64,000 nt of DNA from positions 6,315,501 through 6,379,500 of the forward strand of contig NZ_CP108006.1 in the NCBI RefSeq assembly GCF_036127095.1. Direction: 5' to 3'. This DNA is from Streptomyces sp. NBC_00335. GTDB taxonomy: Bacteria > Actinomycetota > Actinomycetes > Streptomycetales > Streptomycetaceae. Positions 27,558-43,583 of this stretch are shown in pieces. Numbering within the stretch: the first letter of the stretch is position 1; each line of letters starts with the position of its first letter. The notes below the pieces were generated by a model. The model ran no database searches and had not been told where the DNA came from. It worked only from the letters and a program-made list of their open reading frames with translations. The position numbers and the translations under genes are program-made.

Positions 27558-27592
27558 GCCCCGGGAGCCGGCGGTGAACCGGAGAACGAGAG

Positions 27593-27627: not shown

Positions 27628-27663
27628 GCCGTCGTGCCCCTCTTCCTGCGGGGGCCGGACGGA

Positions 27664-29361
27664 CTACGGGAGCCGGACGGACTGCCCGTGGTTGAAGCGG
27701 TTCGCCGGGTCGTACTTGGCCTTGATCTGCTGCAGGCGCGGGTAGTTGGACCCGTAGTACAGCGTGTACCAGGGCACTCCCGACGTGTTGTGGGCCGGGT
27801 CGTTCAGGTCGATGTCGCAGTAGTTGATGTAGCAGCCGTCGGTGACGTCGTCGAGCACGGGGACGCCGCCGGTCGTCTTGTACGTCTCCTCGTACAGCTC
27901 GCGCAGCCAGGAGATGTTGACCGCGTCGTCGGCCGCGGACGGCCAGTAGCTCTGGAAGAGCAGCTTGAAGACCGAGTCCCGGTGCACGGTGGCCGTGGCG
28001 CCGGGGCTGACGCTGTTCACGTTGCCGCCGTAGGAGCTGAGCAGCACCATCGCGCCGGGGTTGTGCAGGTCGGTGCGGTTGAGGTGCTTCCAGAAGGCGG
28101 CGATCTGCGCGTCGGTCACGTTCTTCTTGTGGAAGGCCGACTTGTAGTCGCCGCGCAGCGTCGGGTCCACCAGGGTGCTGTTGGTGGTGCCGAGGTAGCG
28201 GGTGGCCTGCAGCCACCCCATGCGCTGCGGGGTGAAGTACTCCGGCATCGGGCCGTGCTCGCCCATGGCCTTGGTGACCGGACCGTGCGGGATGTCGACG
28301 CCCTCGGTGACCGCCGCGAGGAAGTCCTCCAGGAGCTGCTCCGCGCCCGGCACGGTGGCGTCCAGCTGGGTGAGCAGGCCTATCTCGCCATTGGACTTGT
28401 GGTTGAGCTTCAGGAAGCTCATCAGGCTTCCGTACTTGCCGCCGGGAGCCCCGTTGGCGACGTGCCAGGCGCCGAAGTTGCGGGTGAGGCGGGTGAAGGC
28501 CGCCTCGGTGACCTGGTCCCACTTCCAGGAGATGGCGCTGATGAACACCTCGGCCGGCGGCTTGACGAGCGACTGCTCCGGCGCCGTGCCCGTGGCCTTC
28601 GGCGACCGGAACCAGTAGCGGGTGATGACGCCGTAGTTGCCGCCGCCCGCTCCCGTGTGCGCCCACCACAGGTCGCGGTGGGGGTCGGTCGCCTCGCGGG
28701 TCGCGAGGACGGTGCGGGCGGTGCCCGCCGCGTCCACGGTGACGACCTCGACCGCGTAGAGGTGGTCGACGATCAGGCCGTGCTCGCGGGCGAGCATGCC
28801 CCAGCCGCCGCCGCTGACGTGGCCGCCGGCGCCCACGGAGTAGCACATGCCGCCGGGGACGGTCACGCCCCAGACCTTGAACAGCCGCTCGTAGACGTCC
28901 AGCAGGGTGGCGCCCGCCTCCACGGCGAAGGCCTTGTACGTGGAGTCCCAGTAGACGGAGGTCATCTCGGACATGTCGAGGACGATCTGGGTGTCCGCGT
29001 TGAAGACGAAGTCCTCGTAACAGTGGCCGCCACTGCGCACGGTGAGCTTCTTCTTGGCCCGGGCGGCCTCCTGGACGACCGCGAGGACCTGAGCGGTGGA
29101 GTCCACCACCCGCACGCTCTCGGGGCGGCCGGTCCAGCGCTGGTTCATGCCGCGCACGAGGTCCCGGTAGCGCGGGTCGGTCGGGGAGACCTTCGCCGCG
29201 GGGAACTCCGCGGCCGGTCCGGCCGCGGGGCCCGTCGCGGAGTCGGCGGCCCGTGCGGTGAGGGCGCCGCCCGCGGTGATCGCCGCGCTCGCGCCGACGA
29301 CCGCCGCCGCGTTGCCCAGAAGCCGCCTGCGGCTCCACTGGCCGTTCGATACGTCTGTCAT
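27664..29361 (-). CDS. Tat-exported FAD-linked oxidase with berberine-bridge C-terminus
   Basis: 565 residues. The N-terminus has a twin-arginine signal (WSRRRLLGNAAAVVGAS, then AxA near residue 36), so the folded flavoprotein is probably secreted. The PCMH-type FAD domain (about 85-260) carries VRSGGHCYEDF and, further on, GGMCYSVGAGGHVSGGGWG. The His and Cys fit bicovalent flavin attachment, as in GilR-type oxidases. The BBE motif near the C-terminus is NRFNHGQSVRLP. It oxidises alcohols or phenolic substrates with O2. It is last in the cupin-amidohydrolase-oxidase operon. ATG 29361 was preferred over an upstream TTG. Confidence 0.9.
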   Translation of the reverse strand: MTDVSNGQWSRRRLLGNAAAVVGASAAITAGGALTARAADSATGPAAGPAAEFPAAKVSPTDPRYRDLVRGMNQRWTGRPESVRVVDSTAQVLAVVQEAARAKKKLTVRSGGHCYEDFVFNADTQIVLDMSEMTSVYWDSTYKAFAVEAGATLLDVYERLFKVWGVTVPGGMCYSVGAGGHVSGGGWGMLAREHGLIVDHLYAVEVVTVDAAGTARTVLATREATDPHRDLWWAHTGAGGGNYGVITRYWFRSPKATGTAPEQSLVKPPAEVFISAISWKWDQVTEAAFTRLTRNFGAWHVANGAPGGKYGSLMSFLKLNHKSNGEIGLLTQLDATVPGAEQLLEDFLAAVTEGVDIPHGPVTKAMGEHGPMPEYFTPQRMGWLQATRYLGTTNSTLVDPTLRGDYKSAFHKKNVTDAQIAAFWKHLNRTDLHNPGAMVLLSSYGGNVNSVSPGATATVHRDSVFKLLFQSYWPSAADDAVNISWLRELYEETYKTTGGVPVLDDVTDGCYINYCDIDLNDPAHNTSGVPWYTLYYGSNYPRLQQIKAKYDPANRFNHGQSVRLP

Positions 29362-29415
29362 CGCTGTTGGCAAACCTTTCGTGGAATGTGCGTGGTGACG
29401 CGGTGTCCCGAGGCG

Positions 29416-30387
29416 TCAGGAGGCCTTTTCGATCCGCTCGGACAGGCGGGGCAGGAGGCTCAGCGCGTTGGTCCGGCCGATGGCCGCGCGCTCCTCGCCG
29501 GACCACCCCGGGAAGGCGCGGAAGCCCTCGGTGTTCTCCGTGGTGTGAGCGGCGGGCATGAAGGGGAAGTCGCTGCCGAACAGGATGTTCCCGGTGCCGG
29601 CGAGCTTGGTGAGCGCCGGAAGGGCGTACTCGGTGGCGGACATGGCGATGTCGTAGTGCAGGCGCCCGAGCGAACCGATGAGGTCCTCGGGCGCGCGGTC
29701 CTTGAGGTACGCGCCGATCGTCGGCCCGTACGTCATCCGCTGGGCCAGGAACGGCAGGGTGCCGCCCGCGTGGGACAGGATCAGCCGCAGACCGGGCAGC
29801 CGGTCGAGGGTCCGGTTGAACAGCAGGCTGGCGACCGTGCGGGTGGTCTCGAAGGTGAACTCGTAGAGCGACGGCGGCAGATCGAAGGTGGCGAGGTCCT
29901 TCGACGGCGGGGTCATCGGGTGCACGTGGACCGGCAGGCCGCGCTCGGTCAGCTCGGCGAGGAGCGGCTCGAACTCGGGGTCGCCGAGGTAGCGGCCCTC
30001 GTAGCTGGTGAGCAGTCCGACGCCGTCGAGCCCCAGCTCGTCGATGGCGTAGGCCAGTTCCTCCCGCGCCGCGGCCACGTCGGGCAGCGGCAGGACCGCG
30101 AAGGCACCGAAGCGGCCGGGGTGCAGACGGATCAGCTCGGCGAAGTACTCGTTGACCCGGCGGGCGAGCTTGCGGCTCTCGTCGCCTTCGAGGAAGGTCA
30201 CGCCCGGAGCGGTGATGGACAGCACGGCCGCGTCGATGCCGTGCCGGTCCATGACCTCCAGGCTCTCCTCGGGCGTCCAGGTCGGGTAGTCCACGCCGGG
30301 GATGGCCGTCTTCCCGCCGAGCGCCTCGGCGTAGACGGGGGGAATCGCGTGGTGGTGAACGTCAATCAGTCCGTGCGGTCCGGGCAT
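29416..30387 (-). CDS. Amidohydrolase_2 family protein, aromatic-acid decarboxylase type
   Basis: 323 residues, TIM-barrel with metal ligands in DVHHHAIPP (H-x-H), LPVHVHP, LILSHAGGTLPF and NILFGSDFPF. Blocks such as YPTWTPEESLEVMDRHGID and LSITAPGV are typical of the ACMSD/gamma-resorcylate/6-methylsalicylate decarboxylase branch rather than hydrolytic amidohydrolases. Non-oxidative decarboxylation of a hydroxylated benzoate or anthranilate is therefore the best guess; in this island the substrate would be 3-hydroxyanthranilate or a hydroxylated derivative. It lies 54 bp upstream of the oxidase gene and 65 bp after the cupin gene. Confidence 0.85.
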   Translation of the reverse strand: MPGPHGLIDVHHHAIPPVYAEALGGKTAIPGVDYPTWTPEESLEVMDRHGIDAAVLSITAPGVTFLEGDESRKLARRVNEYFAELIRLHPGRFGAFAVLPLPDVAAAREELAYAIDELGLDGVGLLTSYEGRYLGDPEFEPLLAELTERGLPVHVHPMTPPSKDLATFDLPPSLYEFTFETTRTVASLLFNRTLDRLPGLRLILSHAGGTLPFLAQRMTYGPTIGAYLKDRAPEDLIGSLGRLHYDIAMSATEYALPALTKLAGTGNILFGSDFPFMPAAHTTENTEGFRAFPGWSGEERAAIGRTNALSLLPRLSERIEKAS

Positions 30388-30452
30388 GGGGGCTCCATCG
30401 TTAATGGTTCGTGAATAGCTTGTCGCCTTCTCGGAAGGCGTTCACATGAAAT

Positions 30453-30977
30453 TTACGAGAGATATTCATCGCCATACTGTCCGGCGACCCTGAGTGCCCG
30501 CTCCACGTCCAGCTCGTATTGGCCGGCCGGTGGCATCGGTGCATTGTCGTCGGCCGAGACTCCCGCGCCGAGAAAGAATCCGTCCTTGCCGCCGGGCATG
30601 AACATAATGAGAAGTTTCGATGGCTCGTCGCTGACGTTCTTGAACGAATGGACGCTGCCGCGGGGCACGTGGATGAAAGAGCCTGAGTTCAGCTTCAGCT
30701 GCTCGGTTCCGTCGAACATGTCCACCTTTCCCTCAAGGACGTAGAACGCCTCCTCCTCGTGGTGGTGGATATGTGGCGGCGGGCCGCCACCCGGTGGGAC
30801 CAGCGCTTCCATCATGAAGAAGTGCTTTCCGGTGTTGTGCTCGCCCGATTTGATCGTGTACTTGTCGCCGAATGCCCAGCGGCTCGGACCCTCGCCCGGG
30901 GGTACGTGAACGATCTTGCGCGACCACTGTTCTTCGAAACTCAAGGCGCCGCTCCGTCCTCTGCTTTTTCGGGCCAC
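30453..30977 (-). CDS. Cupin domain protein
   Basis: 174 residues, single cupin barrel (about 45-150). Motif 1 is PPPHIHHHEEEAFYVLEG, containing the His-x-His and Glu metal ligands; motif 2 is IHVPRGSVHSFKN with the last His. Such proteins can be metal-dependent dioxygenases, isomerases, cyclases or sensors. It does not obviously match 3-hydroxyanthranilate 3,4-dioxygenase, although the pathway context makes an aromatic substrate plausible. The GTG at 30977 is the assigned start; the first dozen codons are atypical (CGA, AAA, AGA) and the true start could be later. It is the first gene of a minus-strand operon. Confidence 0.83.
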   Translation of the reverse strand: MARKSRGRSGALSFEEQWSRKIVHVPPGEGPSRWAFGDKYTIKSGEHNTGKHFFMMEALVPPGGGPPPHIHHHEEEAFYVLEGKVDMFDGTEQLKLNSGSFIHVPRGSVHSFKNVSDEPSKLLIMFMPGGKDGFFLGAGVSADDNAPMPPAGQYELDVERALRVAGQYGDEYLS

Positions 30978-31196: not shown

Positions 31197-32369
31197 GTGA
31201 ACGGTGTCCACGAATTCCTCCGATCCTTGCCAGCCGCTCAGCAGCCACAATGGGCGGGACACGCGGAGCTCGGGCGGGTACGGGAGGAACTGGCTTCTCT
31301 GCCCCCGCTCGTCGACTCCGAAGACGTCGACGGACTGCGCGCCCTGCTCGCCGAGGCCGCTGAGGGCCGCATCCAGATCATCCAGTCCGGCGACTGCGCC
31401 GAGGACTGGGCCGAATCCTCCGCGGACAGCGTGGCCCGCAAGGCCGGCCTGCTGGAGGTGCTGGCGGGCACGATGAAGATGATCTCGCACAAGCCCGTGA
31501 TCCGGGTGGGCCGGATAGCCGGCCAGTACGGCAAGCCGCGCTCCAAGCCGACCGAGATCGTCGGAGGCGTCGAACTCCCCGTCTACCGGGGCCACATGGT
31601 CAACGCCCCCGAGCCCGACCCGGAGCTGCGCAAGCCCGACCCCACCCGCATGCTCACGGGGTACGAAGCCGCGCGGGGCGTCATCGAAGGCCTCGGCTGG
31701 CACCGGGACGAGCGGAGCCCGCGCCCCGACACCACCGTGTGGACCAGCCACGAGGCGCTGCTGCTCGACTACGAACTGCCCATGATGCGGACGCGGGCCG
31801 ACGGCCGGTTACTGCTCGCCTCGACCCACTGGCCGTGGATCGGCGAGCGCACCCGCCAGGTCGACGGCGCGCACGTCGCACTGCTGGCCGCGGTGTCGAA
31901 CCCGGTGGCCTGCAAGGTCGGCCCCGGCATGACCACCGACGAGCTGCTGGCCCTGTGCCTCGCGCTCGACCCGGACAAGACGCCCGGCCGCCTGACCCTG
32001 ATCGCACGCATGGGCGCCGACACGGTCGGCGAGAAGCTCCCCCCGCTGGTCGCGGCGGTCCGGGAGGCCGGCCACCCGGTCATCTGGCTGACCGACCCGA
32101 TGCACGGGAACACCGTCAGCGGCCCCGAGGGCCTCAAGACGCGCCTCGTGAAGACCGTGGTGCGCGAGGTCCTGGAGTTCCACCGCGCCGTCACCGGGGC
32201 GGGCGGTGTCGCCGGCGGAATCCACCTGGAGACCACGCCCGACGCGGTCACCGAGTGCGTGGCCGACCAGGACCGGCTGCACGAGGTCGGCAACAAGTAC
32301 ACGAGCTTCTGCGACCCGCGCCTCAACCCGCGGCAGGCCGTCGCGGTGGCCGCCGCCTGGCTCGGCTGA
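31197..32369 (+). CDS. Type II 3-deoxy-7-phosphoheptulonate (DAHP) synthase
   Basis: 390 residues from a GTG after a consensus CAGGAGG. It condenses erythrose 4-phosphate and PEP, the entry to the shikimate pathway. Type II (plant-like, PhzC-like) signatures are IIQSGDCAEDWAES, KPVIRVGRIAGQYGKPRS, STHWPWIGERTRQVDGAHV and CKVGPGMT. It is shorter than housekeeping actinobacterial AroH (about 450-460) and lacks its extended N-terminus, where aromatic amino acids act. This suggests a feedback-relaxed, pathway-dedicated enzyme. Leu in ADGRLLLAS is encoded by TTA (31809-31811), making translation bldA-dependent. It heads a plus-strand operon of nine genes. Confidence 0.93.
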   Translation: MNGVHEFLRSLPAAQQPQWAGHAELGRVREELASLPPLVDSEDVDGLRALLAEAAEGRIQIIQSGDCAEDWAESSADSVARKAGLLEVLAGTMKMISHKPVIRVGRIAGQYGKPRSKPTEIVGGVELPVYRGHMVNAPEPDPELRKPDPTRMLTGYEAARGVIEGLGWHRDERSPRPDTTVWTSHEALLLDYELPMMRTRADGRLLLASTHWPWIGERTRQVDGAHVALLAAVSNPVACKVGPGMTTDELLALCLALDPDKTPGRLTLIARMGADTVGEKLPPLVAAVREAGHPVIWLTDPMHGNTVSGPEGLKTRLVKTVVREVLEFHRAVTGAGGVAGGIHLETTPDAVTECVADQDRLHEVGNKYTSFCDPRLNPRQAVAVAAAWLG

Positions 32370-32386
32370 AGGGGACGGGGACAGTG

Positions 32387-33187
32387 ATGTACGGAGTGGA
32401 AACGACGGACAGCGGGATCGCATTGGTCACCGGTGCGGCCGGCGGCATCGGCGAGGAGGTCGTACGCATCCTGGCGGAGCGCGGCCTGACCGTCGCGGCC
32501 GTGGACCGGGACGCCGACGCGCTCGGCGACACCGTGGCCAAACTGCGGGCCGAAGGGCTCAACGTCGAGGCGTTCCCCTGTGACGTGACCGTCTCGGCCC
32601 GGGTGGACAGCCTGGTCGACACCGTGGAGCAGGTCCTGGGGCCCGTGCGGTACCTGGTCAACTCCGCCGGCGTACTGCGCCTGGGCCAGGCCGTGTCCCT
32701 GTCCGACGAGGACTGGGCGGCCACCTTCGCGGTCAACACCACCGGCGTCTTCCACGTCTCGCGCGCCGTCGTCGGCCGCATGGTGGAACGCCGCTCGGGA
32801 GCGGTGGTCACCGTCGCCTCGAACGCCGCCGGCACGCCCCGGACCGGGATGGCCGCCTACGCGGCGTCCAAGGCGGCGACGGCCATGTTCACCAAGTGCC
32901 TGGGCCTGGAGGTGGCCAGGTACGGAATCCGGTGCAACGTCGTGGCCCCCGGATCCACCGCCACCCCGATGCTGACCTCCCTCTGGGCGGACGGCGGCGC
33001 GGACGGCAGCGGCGAGCGCGGCTCGATCGACGGCATCGCGGACGAGTTCCGGGTGGGCATCCCCCTCGGCAAGCTGGCCCGCCCCCTCGATGTGGCCCAG
33101 GCGGTGGCGTTCCTGCTCTCCGACCACGCCTCCCACATCACCCTGCACGACCTCACCGTCGACGGCGGCGCCGCCCTCGGCGTCTGA
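32387..33187 (+). CDS. EntA/DhbA-type dihydro-aromatic dehydrogenase (SDR), likely forming 3-hydroxyanthranilate
   Basis: 266 residues. SDR motifs: [25 protein letters not shown], the catalytic Y-x3-K in [12 protein letters not shown]. The C-terminus [17 protein letters not shown] and [17 protein letters not shown] resembles 2,3-dihydro-2,3-dihydroxybenzoate dehydrogenase closely. Siderophore genes are absent, and PhzD/PhzE are adjacent. The substrate is therefore probably 2,3-dihydro-3-hydroxyanthranilate (DHHA), oxidised with NAD+ to 3-hydroxyanthranilate. That step diverts the phenazine precursor. It starts 17 bp after the DAHP synthase stop. Confidence 0.88.
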
Positions 33188-33297
33188 CCCGCCGCCGCCC
33201 CCGCACCGACCCGGCACCGCCCCCGCATCGACCCGGCACCGAGCCCCTGCCGAAGGCCACACCCCGAGCCCACACCCGAGCGAGAGGAAGGACGACC

Positions 33298-33954
33298 ATG
33301 GCGGGAATTCCGCCCATCGATCCGTACCCCATGCCCTCCGAGGGAGACCTCCCCGTCAACACCGCCGACTGGACGGTCGACCCCGACCGGGCGGTGCTGC
33401 TGATCCACGACATGCAGCGCTACTTCCTGCGCCCGTTCCCCGAGGGCGAGTCCCCGGTCGGCGACCTCGTGCGCAACGCGACGCTGCTGCGCGAACAGTG
33501 CGCCGCCCTCGGCATCCCGGTCGCGTACACCGCGCAACCCGGCGGCATGTCGGAACAGGAGCGCGGTCTCCTCAAGGACTTCTGGGGCCCCGGGATGAAG
33601 GTCTCGCCCGAGGACCGCCGGGTGGTCGACCCCATCGAACCGGGCCCCTCCGACTGGGTGTTCACCAAGTGGCGCTACAGCGCCTTCTTCAAGTCGGAGC
33701 TGCTGGAGCGCATGCGCTTCCAGGGCCGCGACCAGCTCGTCGTCTGCGGTGTGTACGCCCACGTGGGCGTGATGGCGACGGTCGTGGAGGCCTTCACCAA
33801 CGACATCCGGTCCTTCCTCGTCGCGGACGCCGTCGCCGACTTCTCCGAGGCGCAGCACCGGTTCGCCCTGGACTACGTCGCCCAGCGCGCGGGGGTCGTC
33901 AAGACCACCAAGTCCGTGCTCGCCGAGCTCACCGCGCCGGGCGGTGCCCGGTGA
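33298..33954 (+). CDS. phzD: PhzD-type isochorismatase (ADIC hydrolase)
   Basis: 218 residues. Very close to pseudomonad PhzD throughout: [61 protein letters not shown], and [15 protein letters not shown]. The catalytic Asp is in HDMQ and the Lys in TKWRYS. It cleaves the enolpyruvyl ether of 2-amino-2-deoxyisochorismate, giving trans-2,3-dihydro-3-hydroxyanthranilate and pyruvate. It has no aryl-carrier domain, unlike EntB/DhbB, which argues against a siderophore role. It is preceded by a 110-bp gap with an AGAGGAAGG ribosome site and overlaps phzE by GTGA. Confidence 0.95.
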
Positions 33955-35828
33955 CCCCGGACCTGCTGAACCGGGTGCTCACCGGCCGCGCACCGGCGTA
34001 CGCCCTGCTGTACCGCCCCGAGACCACCGGTCAGGAGCTCCTGGAGGTGCTGCTCGGCGAGGTGTCGAGCGTGGAGACCCTCGCCGAGATCCCCGTGCCG
34101 CAGGGCCCCGCCGCGGGCCCGCGGCACGAGACCCTGGCCATCGTCCCCTACCGGCAGATCACCGAGCGGGGGTTCGCCGGCACCGACGACGGCGAACCGC
34201 TGATCACCATGACGGTCGGCGAGCAGGCGGTCCTCCCGCTGGCCGATGCGCTGCGCAGGCTCCCCGACGAGCCGGTCACCCTGACCGGCGGCCACTTCGA
34301 CGTGGACGACGACGCGTACGCCGGAATGGTCCGCGAGGTCATCGAGCGCGAGATCGGCAACGGCGAGGGCGCGAACTTCGTCATCAAGCGCTCGTTCGTC
34401 GCGGAGATCACCCACTACTCCCCGGCCGGCGCGCTCTCCTTCTTCCGGCGGCTGCTGGAGCGGGAGTCGGGCGCCTACTGGACCTTCCTCGTCCACACCG
34501 GGGACCGCACCTTCGTCGGCGCCAGCCCCGAGCGGCACGTCAGCCTGCACGACGGCACCGCCGTGATGAACCCGATCAGCGGCACCTACCGCTACCCGGC
34601 CGCGGGCCCCGACCTGCCGGGCGTGATGGCCTTCCTCGCCGACCGCAAGGAGGCGGACGAGCTGTACATGGTCGTGGACGAGGAACTCAAGATGATGGCC
34701 CGGATCTGTGAGGGAGGCGGCCGCGTCGTCGGCCCGTACCTCAAGGAGATGGCCCGCCTCGCCCACACCGAGTACTTCATCGAGGGGCAGACCTCCCGCG
34801 ACGTACGGGAGATCCTGCGCGAGACGATGTTCGCCCCCACCGTCACGGGCAGCCCACTGGAGAGCGCCTGCAAGGTGATCAACCGGTACGAGCCGGAGGG
34901 CCGCGGCTACTACAGCGGCGTCATGGCCCTCATCGGCCGGGACGCCGACGGCGGCCGCACGATGGACTCCGCGATCCTCATCCGCACCGCCGACATCGCG
35001 GCCGACGGCCGGGTGCGCATCGGCGTCGGCGCGACCCTCGTACGGCACTCCGACCCGCTGAGCGAGGTCGCCGAGACCCGGGTGAAGGCGGCCGGACTGC
35101 TGTCCGCGCTCGAAGCGGGCGGCGCGAGCCGTTTCGCCCGGCACGCCGACGTCCGGGGCGCCCTGGAGGAGCGCAACGAGGGCATCGCCGGATTCTGGCT
35201 GCGCAAGACCGCCGAGCGGTCCCGGCCGGTGCCGGAGCTGGCCGGCCGCAGTGTGCTCATCATCGACGCCGAGGACACCTTCACCTCGATGATCGGCCAC
35301 CAGCTGGCCTCCATGGGGCTGAAGGTGACGGTCAGCCGTTTCGACGAGCCGTACGACACCGGCGCCCACGACCTCGTCGTCATGGGCCCGGGTCCCGGCG
35401 ACCCCGGCGAGACCGCACACCCCAAGATCGCGCACCTGCGGGCGACGGTCTCCCGGCTGCTGGGCGAGCGGCGGCCGTTCCTCGCCGTCTGCCTCAGCCA
35501 CCAGGTCCTCTCCACCCTGCTCGGCCTCGACCTCGTCCGCAGGACCGTGCCCAACCAGGGTGTCCAGCGGCAGATCGACCTGTTCGGCGCGCCGGAGCGG
35601 GTCGGCTTCTACAACACGTTCGCGGCGCGGCTGGCCGAGGACAAGTTCGAACACCCGCGGGCCGGGATCGTCGAGGTCAGCCGCGACGTCGAGACCGGTG
35701 AGGTGCACGCCCTGCGCGGACGGGGCTTCGCCTCGATGCAGTTCCACGCCGAGTCGGTCCTCACCGAGGACGGCGTACGGATCACCCGCGACCTGCTGAT
35801 CGGAGTGGTGCGCTCGTGCGAGCGGTAA
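33951..35828 (+). CDS. phzE: PhzE-type 2-amino-2-deoxyisochorismate synthase (fused TrpE- and TrpG-like domains)
   Basis: 625 residues from a GTG, matching PhzE length (about 630). The N-terminal chorismate-binding domain (about 1-410) has [26 protein letters not shown] and [13 protein letters not shown]. The C-terminal glutamine amidotransferase (about 430-620) has [12 protein letters not shown], the nucleophile in [15 protein letters not shown], and the His/Glu of [13 protein letters not shown]. It converts chorismate plus glutamine-derived ammonia into ADIC without pyruvate loss. Translational coupling to phzD suggests channelled production of DHHA. The gene's last codons contain the start of the next gene. 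Confidence 0.95.
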
Positions 35829-36154
35829 TCGTCTGGTGGGACCTGAAGGAATCCGAGCAGACCATCGACTCGCTGCGCGGGTTCCTGCGCGACGAGGCGG
35901 TCGACCGGTTCAGTCAACTGGCCGGTCTGCGGCTGAAGTTCTGGATATCCGACCGGGAGACCGACCGCTGGGGAGCGGTACTCCTGTGGGAGTCCGCCGA
36001 GTCGGCCGCGCTCGCCGCGGCCCTGCCCAACCGGGCTGCGGAACTCATCGGCTACCCGCCCACCGAGCGCTCCTTCTTCGACGTGGAAGCCACCGTCGAG
36101 GGCGTCTTCTCGCTCGACCGGCTCGCCGGCCGCGGCCTGGCCCTGGAGGGCTGA
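35816..36154 (+). CDS. YdhR-like small protein, dimeric alpha/beta-barrel type
   Basis: 112 residues; its GTG lies inside the phzE end, overlapping by 13 bp. The sequence ([50 protein letters not shown]) resembles the YdhR group of ferredoxin-like monooxygenase-fold proteins. Members include quinone-forming monooxygenases without cofactor, cyclases and orphan proteins, so function is not assignable. Its place between phzE and transketolase within a tightly coupled operon suggests it acts in the pathway, for example oxidising an aminophenol to a quinone, as inference only. GGAGGGCTGAG lies over its stop codon. Confidence 0.75.
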   Translation: MRAVIVWWDLKESEQTIDSLRGFLRDEAVDRFSQLAGLRLKFWISDRETDRWGAVLLWESAESAALAAALPNRAAELIGYPPTERSFFDVEATVEGVFSLDRLAGRGLALEG

Positions 36155-36277
36155 GCGATGCCCGGACCGGGGGAGGGGCCGGGCCCGGCCCGGGCGAGCT
36201 CATCGGCCGCCCCGCCCGAAACCACGCCCACGCCCCCTCCCGCCTCCAGACAAGCCACAAGGAGCCCTGACCGTCCG

Positions 36278-38476
36278 GTGAACACCCAGGCGAGCACCAG
36301 CAACCCCGCCTTCGAGTGGTCCGCACTCGACCGGCAATCCGTCGATGTCGCACGCGCCCTCGCGGTCGACGCAGTCGAGAAGGCCGGGCACGGCCACCCG
36401 GGCACGGCCATGAGCCTGGCCCCGGCGGCGCACCTCCTCTTCCAGCGGCTGCTGCGCCACGACCCGGCGGCCCCCCGCTGGACCGGTCGCGACCGCTTCG
36501 TCCTGTCCTGCGGACACTCCAGCCTCACCCTCTACACCCAGCTCTACCTCTGCGGCTACGGCCTGGAGCTCGACGACCTCAAGGCGCTGCGCACCGAGGG
36601 CAGCCTCACCCCCGCCCACCCCGAGTACGGGCACACCCCCGGCGTGGAAACCACCACGGGCCCCCTCGGCCAGGGCCTCGGCAACGCCGTCGGCATGGCC
36701 ATGGCCGCCCGCCGCGAGCGCGGCCTCTTCGACCCGGACGCCGCCCCCGGCACGTCCCCCTTCGACCACACCGTCTGGGTGTTCGCCTCCGACGGGGACC
36801 TCGAAGAAGGCATCAGCCACGAAGTCGGCTCGCTCGCCGGACACCAGAAGCTGGGCAACCTCGTCGTGCTCTGGGACGACAACCGGATCTCGATCGAGGA
36901 CGACACCTCCATCGCAGTGTCGGAGGACGTCCTCGCCCGCTACGCCGCCTACGGCTGGCACGTCCAGCAGGTCGACTGGACCCGGACCGGCTCCTACGAG
37001 GAGGACGTGCCGGCCCTGCACGCGGCGCTGGCCGCCGCCCGCGAGGAGACCGGCCGTCCCTCGATCGTCGCGCTGCGCACGATCATCGGCTGGCCCGCCC
37101 CCACCCAACAGAACACCGGCAAGATCCACGGATCCGCGCTGGGCGCCGGCGAGGCGGCCGCGGCCAAGGCCGCCATGGGCCTGGATCCGCAGGCCTCCTT
37201 CCAGGTCCCCGCCGAGGTGCTCGCCCACGCCCGCGAGGTCGCCGACCGTGGGCGCGCGGCCCGCGCGGAGTGGGACAAGCGCTACCAGGACTGGCGCGCG
37301 GCCCGGCCGGAGCACGCGGCCCTCTTCGACCGGGTCGACGCCAAGCGGCTGCCCGAGGGCTGGAGCGACGCGCTGCCGGAGTTCACCGCGGGCGGCGAGA
37401 TGGCCACCCGCAAGGCCTCGGGCGAGGTGCTGAACGCGCTGGCCGGCGTACTGCCCGAACTGTGGGGCGGCTCCGCGGACCTCGCCGAGTCCAACAACAC
37501 CACCATGAAGGGCGAACCCTCCTTCATCCCCTCGGAGTTCGCCACCCGGGCCTTCCCGGGCCACCCCTACGGCCGCACGCTCCACTTCGGCATCCGCGAG
37601 CACGGCATGGGCGCCGTCCTCAACGGCATCGCCCTGCACGGCGGAACCCGGCCCTACGGCGGCACCTTCCTCGTCTTCTCCGACTACATGCGCCCGGCCG
37701 TGCGCCTCGCGGCCATGATGAAGCTGCCCGTCACCTACGTCTGGACCCACGACTCCATCGGACTCGGCGAGGACGGCCCCACCCACCAGCCGGTCGAGCA
37801 CCTCTGGTCGCTGCGCCTGATTCCCGGCCTCGACGTGGTCCGCCCGGCCGACGCCAACGAGACCGCCGCCGCCTGGCGGGCCGTCCTGGAGCGCGACGAC
37901 CGGCCCGCCGGACTCTGCCTGACCCGTCAGAACGTCCCCGTCCTGCCCGACCCCGGTGCCGACGCCGTGGCCCGGGGCGGCTACGTACGAGCCGAAGCCG
38001 AGGGCGGCCGGCCCGAGGCGGTCGTCCTGGCCACCGGCAGCGAGGTCCACATCGCGCTCGCGGCACGCGAACTCCTGCAGCGCGACGGCATACCGACCCG
38101 GGTCGTCTCGCTGCCCTGCCTGGAGTGGTTCGCCGAACAGCCCCGGGAGTACCGCGACTCGGTCCTCCCGCCGCGACTGCGCGCCAGGGTCTCGGTGGAG
38201 GCCGGCTCCACCCTCGGCTGGCACGCCCTGACCGGCGAGGCGGGCGAAGCCGTCGGCATCGACAGCTTCGGCGCCTGTGCCCCGTACCGGTCCCTGTACG
38301 AGCAGCACGGCCTCACCGCGGAGCGGGTCGCGGCGGCCGTCCGTACGAGCATCGCCCGCGCCGCCGAGCAGCACCCGGCGCCCGCGTCCGAGGGGCCGTC
38401 GCCGGGGTCGCCGGGGTCGCCGGGGTCGCCCAAGTCGCCGAAGTCGTCGGAGCCGTCGCAGGAAGGAACCCGATGA
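36278..38476 (+). CDS. Transketolase, pathway-dedicated copy
   Basis: 732 residues. Thiamine-diphosphate motif VWVFASDGDLEEGISHE with later WDDN; substrate residues in KAGHGHPGTAMSLAPAAH and PLGQGLGNAVGMAMA; C-terminal half with VWTHDSIGLGEDGPTHQP. It makes erythrose 4-phosphate from fructose 6-phosphate, the partner substrate of DAHP synthase. The start was placed at GTG 36278. An ATG at 36158 has a good ribosome site, but the intervening codons include AGA, CAA, ACA and AGG, unlike coding DNA here. The tail holds a 9-bp tandem repeat giving S-P-G units. Cytoplasmic. The stop overlaps the next start. Confidence 0.92.
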   Translation: MNTQASTSNPAFEWSALDRQSVDVARALAVDAVEKAGHGHPGTAMSLAPAAHLLFQRLLRHDPAAPRWTGRDRFVLSCGHSSLTLYTQLYLCGYGLELDDLKALRTEGSLTPAHPEYGHTPGVETTTGPLGQGLGNAVGMAMAARRERGLFDPDAAPGTSPFDHTVWVFASDGDLEEGISHEVGSLAGHQKLGNLVVLWDDNRISIEDDTSIAVSEDVLARYAAYGWHVQQVDWTRTGSYEEDVPALHAALAAAREETGRPSIVALRTIIGWPAPTQQNTGKIHGSALGAGEAAAAKAAMGLDPQASFQVPAEVLAHAREVADRGRAARAEWDKRYQDWRAARPEHAALFDRVDAKRLPEGWSDALPEFTAGGEMATRKASGEVLNALAGVLPELWGGSADLAESNNTTMKGEPSFIPSEFATRAFPGHPYGRTLHFGIREHGMGAVLNGIALHGGTRPYGGTFLVFSDYMRPAVRLAAMMKLPVTYVWTHDSIGLGEDGPTHQPVEHLWSLRLIPGLDVVRPADANETAAAWRAVLERDDRPAGLCLTRQNVPVLPDPGADAVARGGYVRAEAEGGRPEAVVLATGSEVHIALAARELLQRDGIPTRVVSLPCLEWFAEQPREYRDSVLPPRLRARVSVEAGSTLGWHALTGEAGEAVGIDSFGACAPYRSLYEQHGLTAERVAAAVRTSIARAAEQHPAPASEGPSPGSPGSPGSPKSPKSSEPSQEGTR

Positions 38477-39750
38477 CCACGGGGACCCTCGCCGGTACGG
38501 GCCGCGCGGCCCGCATCCCGGGTTCGAAGAGCATCACCAACCGCGCCCTGCTCCTCGCGGCGGCGGCCGACGGCACCAGCACCCTGCGCGCCCCCCTGAT
38601 CAGCGAGGACACCACTGCCTTCCGCACCGCCCTGACAGGTCTCGGAGTCCAGGTCACCGCGACCCCCCACGACGAGTTCTGGGAGGTCGGCGGTCTCGCC
38701 GGAGCCCCCGCACACGGCGGCCGCGTCTGGTGCGCCGACGCCGGGACCGCGGCCCGCTTCCTGCCGCCCTTCGCCGCGGCCGGCCACGGCTCGTACGTGT
38801 TCGACGGCTCGGAGCAACTGTGTGCCCGCCCGCTCCGCCCGCTCGCCGACGCCCTGGCACGGCTCGGCGCGCGGGTACGGACCCGGGACGGGGACACCCT
38901 GCCCTTGCGGATCGAGGCCGACGCGCTCGACGGAGGCGAACTCGCCGTCGACGGCGGGCTGAGCAGCCAGTTCCTGAGCGGACTGCTGATGGCGGCACCC
39001 CTGCTGCGCACCCCGCTGACCGTGACGGTCGGCGAGCTCGTCAGCCGCCCGTACATCGACATGACCATCGTCCTGATGCGCCGCTTCGGCGCACGGGTCA
39101 CCGAAGACGCGCCGGGTGTGTTCGAGATCGGCACGGGGGGATACCGCGCCACCGACCTCGTGATCGAACCGGACGCCTCCACCGCCTCCTACGTCTTCGC
39201 GGCCGCGGCCGTCACCGGCCGCTCGGTCACCGTGCCCGGCCTCGGGCGCGACAGCCTCCAGGGAGACCTCGGCTTCGTCGACGTCCTGCGCACCGCCGGA
39301 GCCGAGGTGGAGATCGGCGATCACGCGACGACGGTCACCGGCACCGGCCGGCTCCGCGGCGGGTTCGACGTGGACATGGGCGCGATCTCGGACACCTTCA
39401 TGACGCTCGCCGCGATCGCACCGCTCGCGGACGCTCCCCTCACCATCCGCGGCATCGGGCACGCCCGGCTCAAGGAGTCGGACCGGATCGCGGCGGTCGC
39501 CCTGAACCTCGCCGCGTGCGGAGTGCGCGCCGAGACCGGCCGGGACTGGATCACCGTGCATCCGGGCGAGGTCCGCCCCGCCCGGATCGCCTGCCACCGC
39601 GACCACCGGATCGCCATGGCGTTCTCCGTGCTCGGACTGCGCGCGCCGGGACTCCACCTCGACGATCCGGCCTGCGTGGGCAAGACCTTCCCCGGCTTCC
39701 ACGCCGAACTGGCCCAGCTGTTCCCCAAGACACAAGGAGAACGAGGATGA
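38473..39750 (+). CDS. aroA: EPSP synthase (3-phosphoshikimate 1-carboxyvinyltransferase), second-copy type
   Basis: 425 residues; ATG overlaps the transketolase stop. Signatures: IPGSKSITNRALLLAAAA, the active-site loop CADAGTAARFLPPF, GGLSSQFLSGLLMAAPLL, and the C-terminal HARLKESDRIAAVALNLA with CHRDHRIAMAFSVLGL. It transfers enolpyruvate from PEP to shikimate 3-phosphate. Streptomyces has a housekeeping copy elsewhere, so this copy should boost chorismate supply for PhzE. A less likely alternative is a tolerant target copy for self-protection. Domain structure appears intact. Confidence 0.93.
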   Translation: MTTGTLAGTGRAARIPGSKSITNRALLLAAAADGTSTLRAPLISEDTTAFRTALTGLGVQVTATPHDEFWEVGGLAGAPAHGGRVWCADAGTAARFLPPFAAAGHGSYVFDGSEQLCARPLRPLADALARLGARVRTRDGDTLPLRIEADALDGGELAVDGGLSSQFLSGLLMAAPLLRTPLTVTVGELVSRPYIDMTIVLMRRFGARVTEDAPGVFEIGTGGYRATDLVIEPDASTASYVFAAAAVTGRSVTVPGLGRDSLQGDLGFVDVLRTAGAEVEIGDHATTVTGTGRLRGGFDVDMGAISDTFMTLAAIAPLADAPLTIRGIGHARLKESDRIAAVALNLAACGVRAETGRDWITVHPGEVRPARIACHRDHRIAMAFSVLGLRAPGLHLDDPACVGKTFPGFHAELAQLFPKTQGERG

Positions 39751-41000
39751 CGGACGTACTCGTCGCCGGCGGCGGCATCGGCGGACTGGCCACGGCACTG
39801 AGCCTGGCCGCCCGCGGCCACCGGGTGACCGTGCTGGAGCGCCGGCCCGAGTTCGCCGAGCTCGGCGCGGGGATCCAGCTGGGTCCCAACGCCTTCCACG
39901 CCCTCGACCGGCTCGGTGTGGGCGGGGCCGTGCGCGACCGGGCCGTCCTCATCGACGAGCTGCGCTTCATGGACGCCACCAGCGGGGAGAGCGTCGCGCG
40001 GATGCCGCTGACGGGCGCCTACCGGGAACGGTTCGGCAATCCGTACGCGGTCGTCCACCGGGGCGACCTCTACCAGCCGCTGCTGGACGCCTGCCAGGCC
40101 GCGGACGGAGTCACCCTGCTGGCCGGGCATTCGGTCATCCGGTACGAGCAGACGGCCGACGAGGTCACGGCGATCACCGGCACCGGGCAGCGGTTCACCG
40201 GGGACGTGCTGATCGGAGCCGACGGCATCCGATCGGCCTTACGCCGCCAGCTGATCGGGGACGGGGACCCGCGGGTGTCGGGCCACACGATCTACCGGTC
40301 GGTCATCCCCATGGAGAAGGTGCCCGAGGAACTGCGCTGGAACAGCGTGACCCTGTGGGCCGGACCCAAGTGGCACTTCGTGCACTACGCGATCGGCGGC
40401 GGCGAGTTCCTGAACCTGGCCGCCACCCGCGACAACGGCGCGCGCGAGGCGCTCGTCGGGCTGCCGGTGGACCGGGATCACGTACTGGGCGAGTTCCCGG
40501 AGCTGGGCGACGCGGTCCGGCGGCTGCTGGAGCTCGGTGAGGAGTGGAAGACCTGGGTGCTGTGCGACCGTGACCCGGTCGAGGGCTGGACGGACGGCCG
40601 GGTGGCGCTCATGGGCGACGCGGCGCATCCGATGCTCCAGTACGCGGCCCAGGGCGCGTGCATGGCGCTGGAGGACGCGGTCGTCCTCGGCGAAGTACTG
40701 GACGGCAACGGCGACGGCAACGGTGACGGCGGGGCCGCGGTCGGCCGGGACGTCGCCGGCCGGCTGGCACGGTACAACGAGCAGCGGCGCGACCGTACGG
40801 CCAAGACCCAGCTGGTGGCACGGGAGATGGGCGCGCAGCTCTACCACCCGGCCGGCGAGGCGGCGGCGGCCCGCAACCGGATGCTCGCCGGGTACAGCGC
40901 GGACGACCTGTACGACACGGTGGCGTGGCTCCACGGCTCCCGTGACTTCACGGCGGGGCCGGCGCGAGCCGCCGAACTCGTCGAGGGAGGGGTCCGTTGA
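39747..41000 (+). CDS. FAD-dependent hydroxylase of the salicylate / 3-hydroxybenzoate 6-hydroxylase group
   Basis: 417 residues; ATG overlaps aroA. FAD-binding [23 protein letters not shown] motif [15 protein letters not shown] and GD motif [18 protein letters not shown]. Relatives hydroxylate salicylate with decarboxylation or 3-hydroxybenzoate at C-6; PhzS is also related. On 3-hydroxyanthranilate it could give a 2-amino-hydroquinone, with or without CO2 loss. Leu in SALRRQ is a TTA codon (40239-40241), so translation depends on bldA. A short N-G-D-G repeat (about residues 321-328, DNA 40705-40730) interrupts the region after the GD motif and may be a slippage insertion. Confidence 0.9.
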
Positions 41001-42181
41001 GCAGGCTGCGCTGGCTGACCGCCGGGGAGTCGCACGGACCGGCGCTGGTGGCGACGCTAGAGGGGCTTCCCGCCGGTGTTCCGGTCACCACCGCTCTGGT
41101 GGCCGGGCACCTGGCCCGGCGCCGGCTCGGCCACGGGCGCGGTGCGCGGATGAAGTTCGAGCAGGACGAGATCACCTTCCTCGGCGGGGTCCGGCACGGG
41201 CTGTCGCTGGGCTCTCCCGTGGCGGTGATGGTCGGCAACAGCGAGTGGCCGAAGTGGCGGACGGTGATGTCGGCCGACCCGGTGGATCCGTCGCTGTCGA
41301 AGGAGGCCGGCCGGGGCGCCCCGCTGACGCGTCCGCGTCCGGGTCACGCGGATCTGGCGGGGATGCAGAAGTACGGGTTCGACGAGGCCCGGCCGGTTCT
41401 GGAGCGCGCCAGTGCGCGGGAGACGGCCGCGCGGGTCGCGCTGGGGGCGGTCGCCAGGTCCTTCCTGAAGGAGGCCGCCGGGATCGAGATCGTGTCGCAC
41501 GTGGTGGAGCTGGCGGGGGCCAGGGCCCCGTACGGGGCGTACCCGACGACGGCCGACGTGGAGAAGCTCGACGCGGACCCGGTGCGGTGCCTGGACGCGG
41601 ACGCGAGCAAGGCGATGGTCGCGGAGATCGACCGGGCCCACGGGGACGGCGATACCCTGGGAGGTGTGGTCGAGGTCCTGGCGTACGGCGTACCCGTCGG
41701 GCTCGGCTCGCACGTCCACTGGGACCGGCGCCTGGACGCGCGCCTGGCGGCGGCCCTGATGGGCATCCAGGCGATCAAGGGCGTCGAGGTCGGCGACGGC
41801 TTCGCACTCGCCCGGGTGCCCGGCTCGAAGGCGCACGACGCGATCGTCCCCACCCCCGAGGGTCTCAAGCGCACCTCCGGCCGCTCCGGCGGCACCGAGG
41901 GCGGGCTGAGCACCGGCGAGCCGCTGCGGGTGCGGGCCGCGATGAAGCCCATCGCGACGGTGCCGCGGGCGCTCGCGACGGTCGACGTGGTGACCGGAGA
42001 GGCGACGGTGGCGCACCACCAGCGCTCGGACGTGTGTGCCGTGCCGGCGGCGGGGATCGTCGCGGAAGCGATGACCGCCCTCGTGCTGGCGGACGCGGTC
42101 GTCGAGAAGTTCGGCGGGGACTCGGTCCCCGAGACCCGCCGCAACGTGCGGTCGTACCTCGGCAACATGCGGTTCATCTGA
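40997..42181 (+). CDS. aroC: Chorismate synthase
   Basis: 394 residues starting at a TTG that overlaps the preceding stop (TTGA), so translation is probably coupled. Signatures are [16 protein letters not shown], the [17 protein letters not shown] block that binds substrate phosphate and FMN, and [20 protein letters not shown]. The final [14 protein letters not shown] is also typical. It anti-eliminates phosphate from EPSP to give chorismate, using reduced FMN. It is complete and probably duplicates a housekeeping copy. Last gene of the operon, followed by a strong hairpin. Confidence 0.94.
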
Positions 42182-42240: not shown

Positions 42241-42347
42241 TCCCGTCACCACCCCCGGCCGCAGGCAGGTGGCCGGCGCACCTCCCCCGCAGGGGGGTCC
42301 CCGGGCGACGGTGGGACTGCATTCGAAGCAGCCTAGGGGGGCCTGTG

Positions 42348-43583
42348 GTGACCACCGCCATGAACACCATCGTCCGAAGGGAACTGTCCGTCGTGGGTGC
42401 GCGGGAGGGCCGCGACACCGCGGTCCGGATCCGGCGCGACCCGATCAGGGAAATCACCGAAGACCTGTGTGCCACCGTCTTCGCCTCGCTCCGCCGCAAG
42501 GACCAGCGGGAGAAGGCCCAGCACTACGTACGGGGACTGCTGGCCACCTCGGGGCGCAAGTCCATCCGCAGCATCGCCGCCCACGTCGAGGGGGACGCCG
42601 CCGAACAGAGCCTGCACCACTTCATCTTCAGCTCCACCTGGGACTGGCAGCCCCTGCGCACCGCGCTCTCGGAATACCTGGAGAGCACCACCCCGCTGGC
42701 GGCCTGGGTCGCCCAGCCGATGGCGATCCCCAAGGGCGGCGAACACTCGGTCGGCGTCGGCCACCACTTCGACCCGCACCAGGGCCAGATGTTCCGCGGC
42801 CAGCAGGCATTCGGCACCTGGTTCGCCTCGGCCGAGGTGGCCACGCCGGTCGGCTGGCGGCTGTTCGTACCGGACGGCGAGAACAACGCCGAAGCCTCCG
42901 CCAATTCGGCGCGCCGCACTGTCGCCGACCCCGGCACCGGTCCCGCCCCCGCACACCACACCTCGTACGAGGAGTGCGCGGCCAGCGGTGTCATCGAGAC
43001 CGTCAAGGCCGCCGCGATGCCCGCCCACCCGGTCGTCCTCGACGTCCCCAACATCGGCACCCGCATGACGATGAACCGCTTCGCCGAGGCCCGCATCCCC
43101 GTCCTGGCCCGGATCAGCCCCGCCGGCCGGCTGCTCGTCACCGACCCGGCGCTGCCCGGCTACGGCGCCGGCCCGCTGAACGCCGAGGACATCCTGCAGT
43201 CCCTCAAGGGGCTGCGCGCGCCCGTGGAGTGGGCCGACCCGGCCAACCCGTCGGCGCGCCGCAGCACCCTCGCCGTCGCCGTCGGCGTGATGATCCCCGA
43301 CCCGTCGGCGGCGCGGCGCCGCCAGCTCGTGCTGGTCGGCGAGTGGACCGACCCGCACCGGCTGCCGTCCCAGCTGTGGATCACCGACCTGACCCGGCTG
43401 TCCGCGGGCCGCCTGCTGCGGCTGACCAAGCAGGCCCCGCGGGTGGCGCTCACCTCCCAGCACAGCGGCCAGGAGCTGGGACTGCGCGACTACACCGGGC
43501 GTTCCCTGCACGGCTGGCACCGGCACGTCACCCTGGCCTCCATCGCCCACGCCGCCCACAGCCTCGCCGCGGCGCGGCAGTAG
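42348..43583 (+). CDS. IS701-type transposase-derived protein lacking catalytic aspartates
   Basis: 411 residues from GTG 42348 after GGGGGGCCT; GTG 42345 is equally possible. The overall architecture follows IS701/DDE_5 transposases: EKAQHYVRGLLATSGRKSI, SLHHFIFSSTWDWQPLR, HSVGVGHHFDPHQGQ and VGWRLFVPD. Where active enzymes have an Asp pair before the T-G-F-P-K segment, this protein reads AQPMAIPKGGEHSVGV. The second Asp region (normally D-A-x-Y-G) reads LDVPNIG. No terminal inverted repeats or target duplication were seen. It is probably an immobile, co-opted DNA-binding protein, perhaps a regulator; similar proteins occur in Streptomyces metabolite clusters. Confidence 0.8.
   Translation: MTTAMNTIVRRELSVVGAREGRDTAVRIRRDPIREITEDLCATVFASLRRKDQREKAQHYVRGLLATSGRKSIRSIAAHVEGDAAEQSLHHFIFSSTWDWQPLRTALSEYLESTTPLAAWVAQPMAIPKGGEHSVGVGHHFDPHQGQMFRGQQAFGTWFASAEVATPVGWRLFVPDGENNAEASANSARRTVADPGTGPAPAHHTSYEECAASGVIETVKAAAMPAHPVVLDVPNIGTRMTMNRFAEARIPVLARISPAGRLLVTDPALPGYGAGPLNAEDILQSLKGLRAPVEWADPANPSARRSTLAVAVGVMIPDPSAARRRQLVLVGEWTDPHRLPSQLWITDLTRLSAGRLLRLTKQAPRVALTSQHSGQELGLRDYTGRSLHGWHRHVTLASIAHAAHSLAAARQ

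Follow-up and report, generated by a model that had tools for sequence, protein, structure and literature searches.

The window analysed here, a stretch of 64,000 nucleotides (positions 6,315,501-6,379,500 of a 9.0-Mb genome; 71.9% G+C; Streptomyces, as judged from its relatives), carries a gene cluster predicted to make 3-hydroxyanthranilate (3-HAA) from chorismate and to modify it further. An earlier note on this DNA had placed phenazine-type genes at 31197-42181, and both of its end points prove exact: the GTG start codon of a class II 3-deoxy-D-arabino-heptulosonate 7-phosphate (DAHP) synthase gene begins at 31197, and the stop codon of a chorismate synthase gene ends at 42181. All genes of this span lie on the plus strand, in the order DAHP synthase, short-chain dehydrogenase/reductase (SDR), PhzD, PhzE, NosA/ydhR-like protein, transketolase, AroA, a flavin monooxygenase (FMO2) and AroC. 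Overlaps of 4 bp are found at PhzD/PhzE, transketolase/AroA, AroA/FMO2 and FMO2/AroC, and one of 13 bp between the end of PhzE and the NosA-like gene; because it overlaps with both aroA and aroC, FMO2 belongs to the operon. Beyond the span given by the note, an exporter and four further tailoring genes occupy 24424-30977. The genes for a cupin and an amidohydrolase (AMH) are divergent from the DAHP synthase gene and co-oriented, with 65 bp between them, and are followed by a berberine bridge enzyme (BBE)-type flavin adenine dinucleotide (FAD) oxidase; farther out, on the plus strand, come a major facilitator superfamily (MFS) exporter and a second flavin monooxygenase (FMO1). In the list below, ADIC stands for 2-amino-2-deoxyisochorismate, DHHA for 2,3-dihydro-3-hydroxyanthranilate and EPSP for 5-enolpyruvylshikimate 3-phosphate.

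24424-25920, plus strand: MFS exporter, DHA2/EmrB type (PF07690; TIGR00711 at 221.8 bits, just below the cut-off of 230.2)
26055-27557, plus strand: FMO1, second flavin monooxygenase (PF01494; nearest structure 4k5r, E = 3.6e-122; RifMO and PgaE also match)
27664-29361, minus strand: BBE-type FAD oxidase with a twin-arginine signal, SRRRLLG, recognized by eye (PF01565, PF08031)
29416-30387, minus strand: AMH, amidohydrolase-2 family (PF04909)
30453-30977, minus strand: cupin, apparently of quercetinase type, with a 3-His/1-Glu site; proposed hydroquinone oxidase/epoxidase
31197-32369, plus strand: class II DAHP synthase (PhzC/Pau21-like), feeding the shikimate pathway (PF01474, 424.7 bits)
32387-33187, plus strand: SDR, DhbA/EntA-like, predicted to convert DHHA to 3-HAA (TIGR04316 at 338.3 bits, cut-off 300; best structures PDB 8sbv/2fwm)
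33298-33954, plus strand: PhzD-type isochorismatase, ADIC to DHHA (1nf9, a PhzD, 299 bits, E = 1.9e-88)
33951-35828, plus strand: PhzE-type ADIC synthase with chorismate-binding and GATase domains (3r74, 751 bits, E = 9.6e-225; PF00425, PF00117)
35816-36154, plus strand: NosA/ydhR-like small protein (PDB 4za1, NosA, E = 2.8e-24)
36278-38476, plus strand: transketolase, precursor supply (TIGR00232, 749 bits)
38473-39750, plus strand: EPSP synthase AroA, precursor supply (TIGR01356, 380.9 bits)
39747-41000, plus strand: FMO2, flavin monooxygenase of the 3-hydroxybenzoate 6-hydroxylase family (NF006021 at 469.5 bits, cut-off 459; 4bjy, E = 3e-65)
40997-42181, plus strand: chorismate synthase AroC (TIGR00033, 444 bits)

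Probable route to 3-hydroxyanthranilate

The earlier note called PhzE and PhzD clear and described the dehydrogenase upstream of them as EntA/DhbA-like, and the family and structure matches bear out both statements. The best structure match of PhzE, 3r74 (entry title, anthranilate/para-aminobenzoate synthases component I), which we take to be a PhzE, is far ahead of the runner-up (84 bits). In the window's PhzD, Asp38 and Lys124 (own count) fall at the positions of Asp38 and Lys122 of the known PhzD, presumably its catalytic residues. The SDR, which adjoins PhzD/PhzE, belongs by the NCBIfam cut-off to the 2,3-dihydro-2,3-dihydroxybenzoate dehydrogenase family. The cluster's own DAHP synthase, transketolase, AroA and AroC would drive carbon to chorismate, from which PhzE would form ADIC and PhzD, in turn, DHHA; the DhbA-like SDR would then aromatise DHHA to 3-HAA. 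This route very probably operates here, as the earlier note had proposed. The route itself is already known and published for other clusters. The limazepine paper (PMC5958127) presents the ADIC and DHHA steps as shown in vitro, terms the limazepine SDR, Lim4, putative, and gives paulomycin, diazepinomicin, calcimycin, caboxamycin, A33853 and tilivalline as further cases of the DHHA route.

PhzF and PhzA/B had been reported absent nearby, and genome searches agree: the PhzF family (PF02567) has 5 places in the genome, none of them in the window and the nearest at 6,089,460, ~226 kb before the window start, and the PhzA/B family (PF03284) has a single place, at 3,484,078, ~2.8 Mb away. A phenazine cluster (PhzA-G) and the window thus have PhzC/D/E-type genes in common, but the window is without PhzF and PhzA/B, and its SDR would take the DHHA branch instead.

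Predicted conversion of 3-hydroxyanthranilate

No adenylation gene lies nearby, as the earlier note said: PF00501 has 64 places in the genome and none in the window, the nearest ending ~59 kb before the window and the next starting ~50 kb after it. The window gene list holds neither nonribosomal peptide synthetase (NRPS) nor polyketide synthase (PKS) genes, PKS being judged from that list alone. The conclusion drawn from this, that the acid itself is probably the small molecule put to use, found no support. In place of NRPS and adenylation genes, the cluster has oxidative and decarboxylative tailoring genes (FMO2 in the operon, then the amidohydrolase, the cupin, the FAD oxidase with its export signal, the second FMO and the MFS exporter), and most of these accompany the 3-HAA module in other species too. 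On balance, we lean towards 3-HAA being an intermediate that FMO2 would convert to 3,6-dihydroxyanthranilate, AMH to 2-aminohydroquinone and the cupin to an aminoquinone or aminoepoxyquinone. What the sequences show are the families of the genes, the layout of the operon, the conservation of catalytic residues and patterns of co-occurrence; from these we infer every reaction after 3-HAA, above all the epoxidation and the roles of FMO1 and the BBE-type oxidase.

The closest solved structure to FMO2 is 4bjy, whose entry name is probable salicylate monooxygenase and which we take to be the 3-hydroxybenzoate 6-hydroxylase of Rhodococcus jostii. H210, Y214 and Q298 of FMO2 align with H213, Y217 and Q301, presumably the catalytic residues of that enzyme. 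An alignment was made with 13 hand-picked relatives, 12 from SDR-containing clusters and one from a locus without SDR (L006; L and G numbers denote loci and genomes). His, Tyr and Gln are all kept in 11 of the 12 members from SDR clusters; the L006 protein has H, F and P. FMO2 would hydroxylate 3-HAA at C6, para to the 3-hydroxyl, and formation of 3,6-dihydroxyanthranilate is likely. In 295 Streptomyces genomes, at least 41 of the 50 relatives of FMO2 have a PhzD no more than 20 kb away, a lower bound obtained by comparing all 50 FMO2 places besides the window's own with the PhzD places listed. The other nine comprise three at 32-33 kb on the same contig, four without a listed PhzD on their contig and two far away (G133, G104).

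The surroundings of PhzD were also analysed, in the best 80 of at least 567 relatives; 27 of these loci are shorter than 20 kb, so that absences there mean little, and genes were called by an open reading frame (ORF) script with approximate starts. SDR was found in 50 of the 80 loci, FMO2 and a NosA-like gene in 25 each, an arylamine N-acetyltransferase (NAT) in 6, the cupin in 4 and AMH in 3. Among the 53 loci of at least 20 kb, 37 have an SDR, and FMO2 is present in 15 of these and in 2 of the 16 without SDR (L006, L008). Since FMO2 occurs in under half of the 3-HAA loci, the route serves other products too. The NosA-like gene is present in 12 of 15 such loci with both SDR and FMO2, compared with 1 of 22 with SDR but without FMO2, which hints that its role is tied to the FMO2 branch.

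The best PDB match of AMH is an unspecified metal-dependent hydrolase (2f6k, 1e-31), followed by 5-carboxyvanillate decarboxylase (6.4e-27) and gamma-resorcylate decarboxylase (2.7e-26). Its metal ligands (HxH, H156, H206 and D273) are conserved in the aligned relatives, which, like those in the cupin and IS701 alignments below, were chosen by hand. The two decarboxylases named take acids with an ortho hydroxyl group; because such a group is absent from 3-HAA and present in the FMO2 product, the order FMO2 then AMH fits the chemistry. AMH would decarboxylate 3,6-dihydroxyanthranilate to 2-aminohydroquinone, a step that is reasonably probable. AMH relatives at E ≤ 1e-85 were found in 9 of the 295 Streptomyces genomes. 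In seven of the nine, one contig carries all of AMH, PhzD and FMO2, and at most 15 kb separate AMH from PhzD (G000, G256, G180 and G193, 76% or more identical; G195, G062 and G032, distant at 51-52%); in G071 and G249 (77%), AMH stands apart from PhzD and FMO2. In the family sample, AMH lies inside a DHHA cluster in G370 and outside one in G583. Counting the close relatives only (at least 76%, the window's included), 5 of 8 genomes have AMH in a DHHA cluster.

The cupin appears from fold comparison to be a quercetinase-type metal enzyme: quercetinases are its best matches, and no structure of 3-hydroxyanthranilate dioxygenase (3-HAO) is among the top 50 matches listed, an absence that carries no weight by itself. 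At E ≤ 1e-42, its relatives occupy 4 places in 394 genomes of the family (its own, G370, G409 and G447), all in DHHA clusters, and 5 places in the 295 genomes of the genus (its own, G256, G193, G180 and G288). The metal-dependent cupin would oxidise and probably epoxidise 2-aminohydroquinone, giving an aminoquinone or an aminoepoxyquinone; epoxidation rather than quinone formation is possible, with the chances slightly below even.

For the last steps, the BBE-type oxidase has its structure matches in TamL (2y08, E = 2.6e-156) and AknOx (2ipi, E = 2.6e-149), and 4k5r, the nearest structure to FMO1, is presumably MtmOIV. FMO1 and the FAD oxidase with the export signal might set the final oxidation level, the oxidase perhaps outside the cell, and the MFS protein would export the product.

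Related clusters and alternative explanations

Five clusters combine the 3-HAA module with AMH, cupin, NAT, a ketoreductase and an MFS exporter (L013/L152 of Je 1-79, L018 of UNOC14_S4, L073 of SA15, L065/L154 of NRRL S-337 and L162/L156 of G180); NAT was identified by a PF00797 scan in L013 and by BLAST in the other four. FMO2 is present in 4 of the 5, the L018 stretch ending inside AroA. G370 and G193, provisionally treated as the genomes of Je 1-79 and NRRL S-337, each carry AMH, the cupin and NAT together with some of the module genes on their own contigs. The window-type cupins and those of the NAT clusters form sister clades with joint support of 98/82. LL-C10037alpha derives from 3-HAA, and the gene set of the NAT clusters is the one that we would predict for acetamidoepoxyquinols of this type: 3-HAA would be converted via 2-aminohydroquinone to 2,5-dihydroxyacetanilide, then to an epoxyquinone and finally to an epoxyquinol (LL-C10037alpha). 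Next to the arylamine NAT, a gene resembling beta-ketoacyl-acyl carrier protein synthase III is found in several 3-HAA clusters (L055, L057, L065, L018 and L154), which suggests N-acylation with another acyl group.

The carboxyl group seems to be handled differently elsewhere. In G447, from another genus of the same family, the cupin, BBE-type oxidase and FMO1 genes lie beside the module (L170, 9790-13790), and the place of AMH is taken by an AMP-binding-like protein (29.4 bits, cut-off 29.9), an aldehyde-dehydrogenase-family protein and an aldo/keto reductase, the last being the only one of the trio named by NCBIfam; G409 has its genes in the same order and was not scanned. By analogy with GriC/GriD, the carboxylate-reducing pair of grixazone, the first two genes may be read as such a pair. 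In L014 and L050, a BBE-type oxidase is accompanied by an asparagine-synthetase-like gene, with no AMH in the fetched stretch. Variation thus seems to centre on the carboxyl group, which speaks for an FMO2 product that still bears it as the common intermediate.

A broader picture can tentatively be drawn from these comparisons, and we regard it as possible, somewhat short of an even chance: the cupin clade would consist of bacterial hydroquinone epoxidases, the clusters with NAT and ketoreductase (e.g. those of Streptomyces sp. Je 1-79, UNOC14_S4 and NRRL S-337) would be of the LL-C10037alpha/MM14201 type, and the window would encode a free-amine relative finished by the exported FAD oxidase, with one 3,6-dihydroxyanthranilate platform whose carboxyl is lost (AMH), reduced (acid-reductase-like pair), amidated (AsnB-like) or kept. 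The chorismate/DHHA entry route and ring hydroxylation in paulomycin are known already. Should the proposed reading be right, the cluster family would provide candidates for the genes that turn 3-HAA into aminohydroquinone and for those behind the epoxidation of hydroquinones in bacteria, an example of one aminated aromatic acid diversified by swapping the carboxyl-handling gene, and a genome-mining handle for small reactive quinone antibiotics, whose NRPS/PKS-free clusters are easily overlooked.

The known system closest in logic is that of paulomycin, in which Pau17, a 3-hydroxybenzoate 6-hydroxylase, is encoded with Pau18-21 (PhzE, PhzD, SDR and DAHP synthase; PMC4425429, PMC4802897). At the family level, this ring-A module (pau17-pau21 / plm14-plm18) has the same DAHP synthase, SDR, PhzD, PhzE and 3-hydroxybenzoate 6-hydroxylase as the window, and in both a DHHA-derived ring would be hydroxylated further, but the window adds AMH, the cupin, the BBE-type oxidase and the NosA-like protein. 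Of the proteins encoded at 18762-45573 that were scanned by Pfam or NCBIfam, none is a C-glycosyltransferase or the product of a sugar or paulic acid gene. The cluster is best seen as a variant that adds decarboxylation and cupin oxidation to the logic of paulomycin ring A. The same four kinds of 3-HAA genes are described for limazepine (Lim3-Lim6), calcimycin, caboxamycin, A33853, tilivalline and penzonemycin (PMC5958127, PMC9323291); limazepine-type pathways couple or acylate 3-HAA, whereas the window cluster is predicted to oxidise and decarboxylate it.

With LL-C10037alpha/MM14201, the likeness lies in a predicted intermediate at the level of 2-aminohydroquinone and an epoxidised hydroquinone. 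The 2,5-dihydroxyacetanilide epoxidases DHAE I/II are mentioned in PMC12356543, and these bacterial hydroquinone epoxidases appear, as a mention or citation, with enzyme work on two strains dating from 1991; a published gene for DHAE was not found in the literature searched, which covers few subscription papers. The fungal cupin AtyE is described as oxidising and epoxidising a hydroquinone, and its cluster as containing an FAD-binding monooxygenase (PMC12356543); AtyE, AtD and PatJ, fungal cupin epoxidases likened here by description only, resemble the proposed enzyme in acting on hydroquinones and differ in their substrates.

Three other known systems were considered. A nybomycin/streptonigrin-like route has five gene kinds in common with the window (DAHP synthase, PhzD-like, PhzE-like, amidohydrolase and salicylate hydroxylase; PMC6265801) but was set aside, as the account in that source names no DhbA-like SDR and includes many further genes that are absent here. 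Mycemycin is made by a kynurenine route and is unrelated (PMC5867642). For sarubicin, the passages in PMC12190653 do not say where the ring comes from, and L014 and L050, which contain AsnB, were for that reason left without assignment.

Several observations weigh against the proposed sequence of FMO2, AMH and cupin reactions. The FMO2 of L164 (G195, from the distant 61% group) has H, Y and H, that is, His replaces the catalytic Gln; moreover, the FMO2 family also holds oxidative decarboxylases (8x38, 8gsm), and ipso-hydroxylation by FMO2 is possible. Three of the eight genomes with close AMH relatives (G583, G249 and G071) carry it elsewhere, the 19-35 kb examined there being free of DHHA genes, and because of these stand-alone relatives AMH is not exclusive to the pathway. 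The closest solved relatives of the cupin are flavonol dioxygenases, the cupin of L073 falls outside the 98/82 clade, and the 20 kb examined around that of G288 (47%; L157) include a DAHP synthase gene and lack PhzD. Finally, the window is without the NAT and the tailoring-arm ketoreductase of the LL-C10037-like clusters: the 3 PF00797 places of the genome all lie outside the window, and their products are 28-41% identical to the cluster NATs. Because NAT is absent and the tailoring arm has no ketoreductase, the window's cluster should not be classed with LL-C10037alpha. As a separate observation, the stand-alone AMH relatives (L151/L158, L153 and L165) are 76-77% identical, and DHHA genes are absent from the stretch examined around each.

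The absence of the ketoreductase also bears on the alternative that survives best, namely that the cupin is a quinone-forming oxygenase of the TcmJ/MomA type and that FMO1 and the BBE-type oxidase complete a hydroxylated or plain aminobenzoquinone with no epoxide. RemF (3ht1) and tetracenomycin-type cupins (2gu9, 3h50) are indeed among the structure matches, but YxaG and QueD outscore TcmJ and RemF, and the cupin shares the 98/82 clade with four cupins of clusters with NAT and ketoreductase, for which an epoxyquinol is the simplest product. We consider this alternative unlikely, with perhaps a minor share of the probability.

A further alternative assigns AMH another role, so that the carboxyl is kept and the product is a carboxylated aminoquinone like paulomycin ring A or like enaminomycin, which is a structure of that type. 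Stand-alone AMH homologues fit such an outcome, as do four loci (L014, L015, L021 and L048) with FMO2 and a BBE-type oxidase and no AMH in the fetched stretch. However, AMH and cupin are co-oriented and 65 bp apart here, AMH has the metal ligands of the decarboxylase family, and it is kept at 82-96% in L020 and G256 (the L020 protein, as called, with its N-terminus cut), which makes retention of the carboxyl improbable. For paulomycin itself, a route via 3,5,6-trihydroxyanthranilate has been proposed (PMC4425429/PMC4802897), a precedent in favour of retention.

Ring cleavage was also considered, in which the cupin would be a dioxygenase of 3-HAA (or aminogentisate) and AMH a decarboxylase of the 2-amino-3-carboxymuconate 6-semialdehyde decarboxylase (ACMSD) type, yielding picolinate or aminomuconate. 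3-HAO is a cupin and ACMSD an amidohydrolase, both similar in size to the window pair; AMH does match ACMSD (E about 2e-18), and gentisate 1,2-dioxygenase is a weak match of the cupin (2d40, E = 0.0032). However, the metal site of 3-HAO is 2-His/1-Glu, whereas that of the cupin is 3-His/1-Glu; the cupin has no match to PF06052 (3-HAO) at E ≤ 0.001; AMH scores higher against aromatic decarboxylases, ACMSD ranking lower; and FMO2, the BBE-type oxidase, FMO1 and the clusters with NAT and ketoreductase would be left unexplained. A genome search with PF06052 gave no match but is uninformative, since its control also matched nowhere. Ring cleavage to picolinate is therefore disfavoured and seems quite improbable. 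Least probable of all, and rejected, is the reading of the earlier note that 3-HAA, free or exported, is the end product: the lack of adenylation, NRPS and PKS genes and the presence of an MFS pump fit it, but FMO2 overlaps its operon neighbours and goes with PhzD across species, and the tailoring genes travel with the module.

Cluster limits, regulation and other loci

Upstream of the exporter lie a butyrolactone block, a SARP-like gene (Streptomyces antibiotic regulatory protein) and an ArsR-type gene, and at the right edge an IS701-derived protein and a GAF-PucR regulator are encoded:

18762-19889, minus strand: ScbA/AfsA gamma-butyrolactone synthase (NF041195, 350.7 bits)
19916-21676, plus strand: two genes between ScbA and ScbR, for a 305-aa protein and an SDR (20879-21676)
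21762-22604, plus strand: ScbR-type butyrolactone receptor (NF041196 at 196.5 bits, cut-off 150)
22884-23663, plus strand: SARP-like activator (weak NF053617 and NF041231 matches, far under the cut-offs)
23880-24248, minus strand: ArsR-type regulator (NF033788 at 46.7 bits, under the cut-off of 55)
42345-43583, plus strand: IS701-transposase-derived protein without the DDTGF motif (NF033540, 251.8 bits; alignment)
43606-45573, minus strand: GAF-PucR regulator, recurrent beside DHHA clusters (PF13556, PF01590)

The whole ScbA-to-PucR block recurs at 88-97% in the sister genome G256, except that transketolase, AroA and AroC are missing there; this conservation supports a cluster extent of about 18.8-45.6 kb with those three genes as accessory. 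The FMO1-to-AroC enzyme genes, except transketolase and AroA, are conserved in S. alkaliphilus as well, on a contig of 14 kb (L020). Chorismate synthase has three copies in the genome. Of the two genes between ScbA and ScbR, the first encodes a protein that has no Pfam match and is HAD-like by eye; both are kept beside ScbA/ScbR in G256 (93% and 97%) and probably serve butyrolactone biosynthesis. The best explanation for these findings is a butyrolactone-regulated cluster of the secondary-metabolite type. No Rfam match was found in the window at gathering scores, nor in 18000-46000 at E ≤ 0.1, and a tRNA search of the window found none.

Genes for the IS701-derived protein and the GAF-PucR regulator occur together in 20 of the 80 PhzD loci, and the IS701-derived protein neighbours DHHA clusters also in L006, L014, L037, L042, L058, L073, L150, L170 and L174. 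Where a transposase-like ORF of L017 (not family-scanned) has DDTGF, 10 of 10 aligned IS701-derived copies have a different sequence (AQPMAI, for example). Judged by this alignment, the protein looks domesticated and inactive as a transposase, and it is perhaps a regulator.

Elsewhere in the genome, the single PhzA/B place is flanked by another PhzD (3,478,648) and a PhzF-family gene (3,488,403), so that a separate phenazine-type locus exists at 3.478-3.488 Mb; the stretch fetched for it (L160, 3470000-3489999) contains PhzD, PhzE, PhzA/B and PhzF-family genes together with AsnB-like and NosA-like genes. A second locus of the 3-HAA type (L161, 3780000-3799999) has PhzE, PhzD, SDR, DAHP synthase, a flavin monooxygenase, an MFS exporter, a BBE-type oxidase and two AtaL-like genes, with no FMO2 seen in its 20 kb, and cross-talk between clusters is possible.

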